64,000 nucleotides of DNA from Vampirovibrio chlorellavorus (GTDB taxonomy: Bacteria; Cyanobacteriota; Vampirovibrionia; Vampirovibrionales; Vampirovibrionaceae). The DNA lies in contig NZ_QFWH01000007.1 in the NCBI RefSeq assembly GCF_003149375.1, positions 1 to 64,000 of the forward strand. Direction: 5' to 3'. The translations under genes were made by a program, and so were the position numbers. Position 1 is the first letter of the stretch. Every line of letters begins with the position of its first letter. The notes under the pieces were generated by a model. It saw only the letters and a program-made list of their open reading frames with translations. It had not been told where the DNA came from and made no database searches. Positions 24,485 through 25,320 of this stretch are shown here, piece after piece.

Positions 24485-24578
24485 ATTCATACAATTCAAG
24501 GTGAGGCTACCATTACACACGCCTTTCACGGGTAGTCTCTCCCGGATTCTATAGCTATTAGCAGGCCTATAAAAAGTA

Positions 24579-24611
24579 CCCCCGCCAACCGAAGTTGACG
24601 GGGGCTTTTTT
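24579..24611. terminator. Bidirectional Rho-independent terminator
   Basis: CCCCCGCCAAC (24579-24589) pairs with GTTGACGGGGG (24594-24604), with one mismatch and a CGAA loop, followed by CTTTTTT on plus. On minus the stem is followed by TACTTTTTAT. It serves the DUF2993 gene and the convergent Cys-rich mini-gene. Confidence 0.88.
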
Positions 24612-24647: not shown

Positions 24648-24770
24648 CTATTTGCAGCACTCAGCGCCGGAACCACAGCAGGGCCCCGGGCAGCAGCCGC
24701 TGTTTGCCAAAGCGATGGTACCGCCAAACACGCTGGCCAGCACAATGAGGGTGGCGAATAATTTTTTCAT
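24648..24770 (-). CDS. Secreted Cys-pair mini-protein (40 aa)
   Basis: ATG at 24770 with AGGAGT 11 nt upstream; a longer frame from 24908 lacks support. A signal peptide MKKLFATLIVLASVFGGTIALA is followed by an 18-residue mature peptide containing six Cys in three CC pairs (GCCPGPCCGSGAECCK). Such density suggests metal binding (copper, zinc) or a tightly disulfide-bonded peptide. The next gene upstream is also secreted with CC pairs. No family is recognised. Confidence 0.72.
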   Translation of the reverse strand: MKKLFATLIVLASVFGGTIALANSGCCPGPCCGSGAECCK

Positions 24771-24889
24771 ACTAACAAGTACTCCTGAATCATAATACTG
24801 TACGTTTAACGGGCGGTCATTGACAGTCTGGTGAGACTGAAAACGGGACACCGGGCTCATTTTCTCCACCGTAAAAAGAGCCCCGCTGC

Positions 24890-25228
24890 CTAGTTCAGGA
24901 GGACGCACAGTTCAAGGTATCGGTGGGATTGATCCGGAACAAACGCCAGATCGGTTCGAGATTGCCCCAAAACGGGTTGCAAATCCAGGAACGCCCAATA
25001 ATCAAAGGGTAAACCTGAAAGGGCCAAATCCGGCAGGGGGCCACTAAAGCCGGTCTGATCCGGTTGGGTTTGCGTGGCGGGTTGCACCACACAACAGGCT
25101 GGCAACTCCTTTTGAACCGCATGCCCACCTTGTTGGCAACAGGCATGAGAGGGCCCGGTCAACAGGCAAAGTGAGGTCAACCAAGCGGCTAACGCGACGA
25201 CAATGACCAAAAACCGGTTTGACTTCAT
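24890..25228 (-). CDS. Secreted protein with Cys-Cys motifs
   Basis: 112 residues from the ATG at 25228 (MKSNRF); a TTG at 25240 is an alternative. A signal peptide (FLVIVVALAAWLTSLCLLTG) is followed immediately by HACCQQGGHAVQKELPACCVV, a His/CC-rich motif reminiscent of small metal-handling exported proteins. The remainder is Leu/Asp/Pro-rich and ends LELCVLLN. It is 119 bp upstream of the 40-residue CC mini-gene on the same strand. A metal role is inference. Confidence 0.6.
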   Translation of the reverse strand: MKSNRFLVIVVALAAWLTSLCLLTGPSHACCQQGGHAVQKELPACCVVQPATQTQPDQTGFSGPLPDLALSGLPFDYWAFLDLQPVLGQSRTDLAFVPDQSHRYLELCVLLN

Positions 25229-25320
25229 GTGCGATCTCAAGTTGCTAATTTCAGGTTAGCACTGATTATTATGACTTACCACCAACGAAACAGCTTTCGG
25301 GCCATAATGGCGTGAAAGGT

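Follow-up and report, generated by a model that had tools for sequence, protein, structure and literature searches.

A conserved exported peptide with three cysteine pairs in Vampirovibrio chlorellavorus and its relatives: a candidate copper buffer putatively coupled to a leader-like gene

The gene for a 40-residue peptide with three Cys-Cys pairs, located in a 64,000-nt stretch of the Vampirovibrio chlorellavorus genome (the window; genome G000, 2.79 Mb), is a real coding gene under selection. The peptide is never encoded alone: a gene of one partner type adjoins it in every carrier, i.e. in 21 genomes of 14 genera and two orders. As relatives of the peptide sit in copper-handling operons, it is most likely a copper buffer acting outside the cytoplasm. 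The case for copper is drawn from these relatives because the neighbours of the unit in the window (an ilvE-like class-IV aminotransferase gene, an LmeA-like gene and era, with no copper genes among them) are housekeeping genes.

The peptide gene and its partner

The copy of the peptide in the genus-level relative G004 is 90% identical to that of the window, and the differences between the G000 and G004 genes are distributed 2/2/10 over the three codon positions. The NG86 estimates for this comparison, against V. chlorellavorus (G004), were dN 0.057 and dS 0.41, which indicates purifying selection; the partner gene gave dN 0.059 and dS 0.50 for the same two genomes. A CC-CC-CC motif at the end of an open reading frame and behind a hydrophobic leader occurred a single time in the window; the 60 control sequences, chain-sampled with the dinucleotide composition of the window, contained no such case. 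Only Met1, Lys2 and the six Cys residues are invariant in an alignment of 15 members. Conservation of the Cys pairs in relatives, which the first-pass annotation had put forward as a test of its proposal, was thus examined; the pairs are conserved, and nothing else in the mature peptide is.

The limits given for the gene by that annotation (24648-24770) were correct; the strand, which was left unstated, is minus (Table 1). Translation of this strand bore out an 18-residue mature peptide with three Cys-Cys pairs, spaced CC-x3-CC-x5-CC, and one third of its residues (6/18) are Cys, as had been noted. The features of the predicted signal peptide, judged by eye, are KK in the n-region, a hydrophobic core and ALA before NSG. 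The Shine-Dalgarno (SD) sequence had rightly been called good, AGGAG lying 11 nt ahead of the ATG (24786-24782, minus strand). The peptide had also been credited with a terminator of its own; the stem is present at 24605-24578, but it probably closes a two-gene unit shared with the upstream gene at 24890-25228. A terminator-like stem is found 3' of the peptide in most relatives too. Neither the partner gene nor its base-pairing with the peptide gene had been noticed. An Rfam search of the window returned a single tRNA and nothing else.

Table 1. Features of the peptide-partner unit in the window
Feature	Position	Strand	Basis or remark
Triple Cys-pair peptide CDS, 40 aa, MKKLFATLIVLASVFGGTIALANSGCCPGPCCGSGAECCK	24648..24770	minus	translation, purifying selection, six invariant Cys
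Predicted Sec signal peptide MKKLFATLIVLASVFGGTIALA	24705..24770	minus	judged by eye; hydrophobic leader in all relatives
Mature peptide NSGCCPGPCCGSGAECCK, 6 Cys in 18 residues	24651..24704	minus	translation
Intrinsic terminator after the peptide, 12-bp stem and T run	24578..24605	minus	
TTCAGGAG, contains peptide SD AGGAG (24782-24786)	24782..24789	minus	
Intergenic region between partner and peptide, 119 nt	24771..24889	minus	SD-hiding fold depends on the stretch folded
CTCCTGAA, within the Leu-Leu-Asn codons ending the partner	24894..24901	minus	anti-SD, exact 8-bp complement of TTCAGGAG (24782-24789)
Partner gene, 112-aa exported protein, SHACC...PACC..., C-terminus PDQSHRYLELCVLLN	24890..25228	minus	directly upstream of the peptide, same orientation

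Homologues with all six Cys residues are present in relatives at the genus, family and order level, and the carriers of the two-gene unit are predatory and soil relatives of cyanobacteria. Peptides sharing the design of the window's were found, for example, in G001 (ESCCPGGSCCGAQAACCK), G003 (VNCCPQSACCEQAADCCQ) and G014 (KPCCKEPPPCCQEHKDCCK), and those of G005 (AGCCPSMCCQGNAPCC), G006 (SACCGGGPCCPGPCC) and G012 (AGCCVGGACCPGPCC) are of like design. The carriers in another order belong to family f4 (G033, G098, G138, G102, G092, G108 and G055), and the peptide occurs in Obscuribacterales relatives, beyond the genus Vampirovibrio. Both loops between the Cys pairs range from x3 to x5 among relatives and vary freely in length and residues. 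Two CC-CC-CC units are found within one peptide in G147, G074 and G139, two peptide genes stand in tandem in G138, and G110 and G042 carry a looser version. Searching the phylum with a profile (386 genomes, E <= 0.005) gave, in addition to members, three weak matches outside the class, which were not credible at their score and thus too weak to show a spread beyond it. No plasmid match was obtained by tblastn with three of the peptides, queries of a kind that the BLAST low-complexity filter may hide. A search for three Cys pairs by a pattern at the DNA level was swamped by antisense Gln repeats; its match in G007 (contig C5) was likewise antisense, inside a partner-like gene.

The partner comes first in 16 of the 21 units and the peptide in five (G033, G055, G092, G102 and G108), the gaps being about 18-140 nt unless the genes overlap, as in G102, where the peptide overlaps the partner start (gap -28). 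The unit of G016 was joined across two contigs overlapping by 127 nt, and the G139 contig carries only the C-terminus of the partner. Since the flanking genes vary from genus to genus, the partner-peptide pair is the conserved item. The partners of both orders have in common a leader, Cys pairs and conserved last residues (RYLxLxxLLN or YLLxRSLLI). Common descent of the partners from the two orders is likely rather than shown, as the hhalign comparison of their profiles was weak (Prob 4.6, E 0.009). A short inverted repeat, GCTAACCTGAAATTAGC, lies just upstream of the partner in the window (25240-25261, minus strand) and is retained in V. chlorellavorus. It was dropped as an operator, being kept in only two close genomes and reading also as an extended -10 element.

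Complementarity between the partner end and the peptide SD

In most partner-first genomes, the 3' end of the partner can pair with the SD of the peptide. The same pairing as in the window is formed with other letters in G016 (TTATTGAAC/GTTCAATAA), G006 (CTTTGTTGCTTA/TAAGCAACAAAG), G001 (CTGAATTAAA/TTTAATTCAG) and G098 (TCTTCTGAT/ATCAGGAGA). The mean duplex energy was -14.0 kcal/mol for own pairs versus -10.6 for swapped pairs, and the fit of the own pairs was reached by 1 of 20,000 permutations in which the sites were swapped between genomes (2 of 20,000 when the closest relatives were left out). In G005, G012, G138 and G042, the own complementarity was no better than the swapped one. The predicted accessibility of the SD (median 0.23) was below that in 48 further gene pairs of these loci (median 0.44; p = 0.004). 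The control sets of these comparisons were picked once the pairing had been seen in a first set, and related genomes are not independent.

Sequestration of the SD exceeded that in shuffled sequences in 7 of 14 genomes (G000, G004, G003, G005, G006, G014 and G098), was not significant in G001 and G147 and was absent in G074, G138, G110, G042 and G012. The 119-nt intergenic region of the window folded alone was not unusual (z -0.95), strong hiding of the SD appearing only when the partner end was included in the fold, and the probability that the SD of G000 is unpaired was 0.00 or 0.32, depending on the stretch folded. That a helix with the partner end hides the peptide SD is supported by these predictions but not proven, because the outcome changes with the stretch folded and is not seen in several genomes. 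If it forms, this helix would make a leader mechanism directly testable.

Metal genes around the unit and its proposed function

In G139, the partner C-terminus, a peptide with two CC-CC-CC units, an OEP outer-membrane channel and a multicopper oxidase follow one another on the same strand. The oxidase is closest to CopA (TIGR01480, E 1.6e-47, below the model cut-off) and has MDHSKM repeats. In five further genomes (G065, G122, G051, G084 and G078) the place of the peptide directly behind the partner is taken by a Csp-like copper-storage protein. The G122 protein matched the NCBIfam Csp1 model TIGR04401, those of G065 and G051 gave phmmer matches to solved CSP3 chains (that of G051 also to Csp1), and those of G084 and G078 were called by pattern, the one tested giving no Pfam match. 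In four cases an RND efflux operon begins with a partner-like gene (G051 contig C34, G076, G102 and G007, the last from the same family as the window genome). The G051 permease is a clear CusA/CzcA protein (TIGR00914, E=0) and the G102 adaptor has heavy-metal-binding domains, while the partner-like genes of G076 and G102 also lie beside a MerT-like gene (PF02411, E 5e-7). The peptide unit of G092 is flanked by FixO/cytochrome c genes on one side and by an RND system on the other, and the layout in G108 is similar.

We consider it fairly likely that the peptide, once exported, acts in the periplasm as a metallothionein-like mini-buffer of Cu(I) and perhaps of other soft metals, and that it is translationally coupled to a CutF/CopL-like leader. 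The signal peptide would direct it to the periplasm, and its three Cys pairs would bind Cu(I) there as thiolate clusters, as the Csp-like protein may do in the sister operons. The partner, by analogy a CutF/CruR/CopL-like leader, would sense the metal through its exported, Cys-bearing nascent chain. Metal on its Cys pairs would alter the stay of the ribosome at the partner end, and a ribosome at this 3' end would open the stem over the peptide SD, so that the peptide would be made when metal is present. In the five peptide-first genomes the partner cannot be the leader of the peptide, which precedes it. More tentatively, the peptides may represent a new class of exported mini-metallothioneins (repeated CC-x(3-5)-CC-x(3-5)-CC, interchangeable with Csp), switched by a novel type of exported, metal-sensing nascent leader with anti-SD last codons (Leu-Leu-Asn/Ile). 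Since these codons are the anti-SD of the peptide, the conserved C-terminus of the partner would, on this possible reading, be selected partly as RNA.

The first-pass annotation had suggested either a periplasmic metal scavenger or a secreted disulfide peptide. A metal role is supported by the G139 copper operon, the Csp-like proteins in the peptide's slot and the nearby RND genes, but uptake, as implied by the word scavenger, is not favoured over buffering or detoxification. A thiol peptide for a soft metal or metalloid other than copper (Zn, Cd, Hg or As) seems unlikely. Vicinal dithiols are good ligands of As(III) and Hg(II), and some partner-like genes stand beside the MerT-like gene and RND efflux genes mentioned above, but only the copper operons place a metal-specific enzyme or store (the CopA-like oxidase, the Csp-like proteins) beside the unit.

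The second suggestion has gained no positive evidence of its own. The periplasm is normally oxidising, and a signal peptide followed by six Cys within 18 residues would suit a secreted peptide stabilised by three disulfides in such a compartment. It might be a toxin, bacteriocin or signal used, for instance, in predation on algae, V. chlorellavorus being a predator (PMC4451040). The freely varying loops and the tandem duplication of the unit are, however, not what a folded knot would show, the peptide is not accompanied by any immunity or export gene, its constant companions being a Cys-pair protein and copper or other metal genes, and it is present in Obscuribacterales relatives and not in the genus Vampirovibrio alone. 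We regard this explanation as distinctly improbable.

Bufferins, like the peptide described here, are exported Cys peptides; they are modified by MNIO enzymes and used against copper stress (PMC12452194). The peptide might accordingly be a bufferin-type RiPP precursor whose Cys residues are turned into thiooxazoles by an MNIO (PF05114) to give a copper chelator, and an MNIO gene is indeed present in 14 of 17 carrier genomes, including G000 (G000:C4:73684-74466). Unlike in bufferin systems, neither an MNIO nor a partner enzyme is encoded beside the CC peptide: the MNIO is encoded apart from the peptide in each of the carriers examined, an exported His/Cys-rich precursor of its own stands immediately before it in G004 and G005, with another conserved gene after it, and the carriers G001, G014 and G139 (the last only 77% complete) have none, all of which makes this alternative very unlikely. 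The MNIO clusters themselves are bufferin-like copper RiPP candidates in Vampirovibrionia (L183 5592-6608, on G000:C4; L184 5174-6449; L186 4859-6093), and the precursor of the G004 and G005 clusters carries KCG/HKC repeats. An exchange of roles, in which the partner would do the work and the CC peptide would serve as a small regulator or leader product, would suit the five peptide-first genomes and the overlap in G102 but is highly improbable, since the partner is first in 16 units and a Csp-like store or efflux genes occupy the peptide's place downstream of it, which casts the peptide as the effector.

Relation to known systems

Searches of Pfam, NCBIfam, PHROGs and the PDB with the peptide and the partner gave no match, and no description of such peptides was found in the open-access literature. 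The defining features of known families were looked for and not found, so that neither protein was assigned to any of them; by analogy, the peptide may work like a metallothionein or Csp and the partner like CutF or CopL.

To our knowledge, the known bacterial metallothioneins are cytosolic and lack a signal peptide. The peptide resembles them (SmtA/BmtA, MymT) in being very small and about one third Cys with nothing else conserved, and with 6 Cys in 18 residues it falls within the range of about 20-35% Cys and little other conservation by which metallothioneins are recognised. It differs in the hydrophobic, signal-peptide-like leader of all its members and in having adjacent CC pairs only, and it has no match among the Pfam or NCBIfam metallothionein models. 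MymT, a 4.9-kDa protein, is the product of a non-annotated ORF (PMC7558416). Csp1-type copper storage proteins (TIGR04401/DUF326) are, like the peptide, exported and Cys-rich, and Csp-like genes fill its slot in the five genomes mentioned. Csp, however, has about 120 residues in a pre-folded four-helix bundle (PMC7558416), a structure that a mature peptide of ~18 residues cannot form.

The partner shares with the CutF/CruR/CopL/CzcI leaders (DUF2946-like) its short length, export signal, Cys metal motif and conserved C-terminus, and in relatives it precedes copper or other metal genes. The intergenic region is short, and a stem over the next SD is predicted in some of the genomes, depending on the stretch folded. 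CutF detects copper through its exported nascent chain, which holds up its own synthesis and opens a stem covering the SD of the following gene (PMC9973294), and CruR is a precedent for leader-type control (PMC9426467). Those leaders have CxxxC or CxxC motifs, whereas the partner has CC...CC; in place of their RAPP or Pro-rich end, an arrest motif that is absent from its C-terminus, the partner ends with the residues given above. It also has no DUF2946, Pfam or NCBIfam match and is second in the unit in five genomes. The gene order of G139 resembles Xanthomonas copLAB in that a partner in the position of copL is followed by genes with putative copB and copA functions; it differs in the CC peptide after the leader and in the channel preceding the oxidase.

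If the proposed function is correct, a peptide of ~18 residues, much smaller than Csp, can act as a copper buffer outside the cytoplasm, and such buffers may be widely missed since the gene is below most gene-calling cut-offs. The partner would then extend the CutF/CruR idea of metal sensing by a nascent exported chain to non-photosynthetic relatives of cyanobacteria with another C-terminal motif. The exchange of a CC peptide for a Csp-like protein behind the same partner would represent a natural experiment on the minimal periplasmic copper store.

Other exported Cys-rich proteins and metal loci were also observed. In G047 (L020, 1501 onward), an exported four-helix protein of the Csp1 type (TIGR04401, E 1.8e-7) ends with GGGKDCCK, the same ending as that of CC peptides. 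A four-gene layout consisting of a MerT-like protein, a Cys-pair partner, an exported protein of 132-143 aa with no assigned family and an RND adaptor with its permease is kept in two Obscuribacterales-like genomes (L171 6009-7608, L176 6154-7571). Two Gastranaerophilales-like genomes and G007 encode another exported family, GCCSxHGGVCGCSxGRAxCCDGxxSPxxxC (L205 1465-1647, L207 1501-1725, L210 1378-1914). Genomes of family f8 encode exported peptides with alternating Cys residues, NCPCGSTCTCSPCNCK and SSCPCSPCHCNPCNCK (L012 1501-1626; L009 around 1501-1599), a CxC counterpart of the CC peptide.
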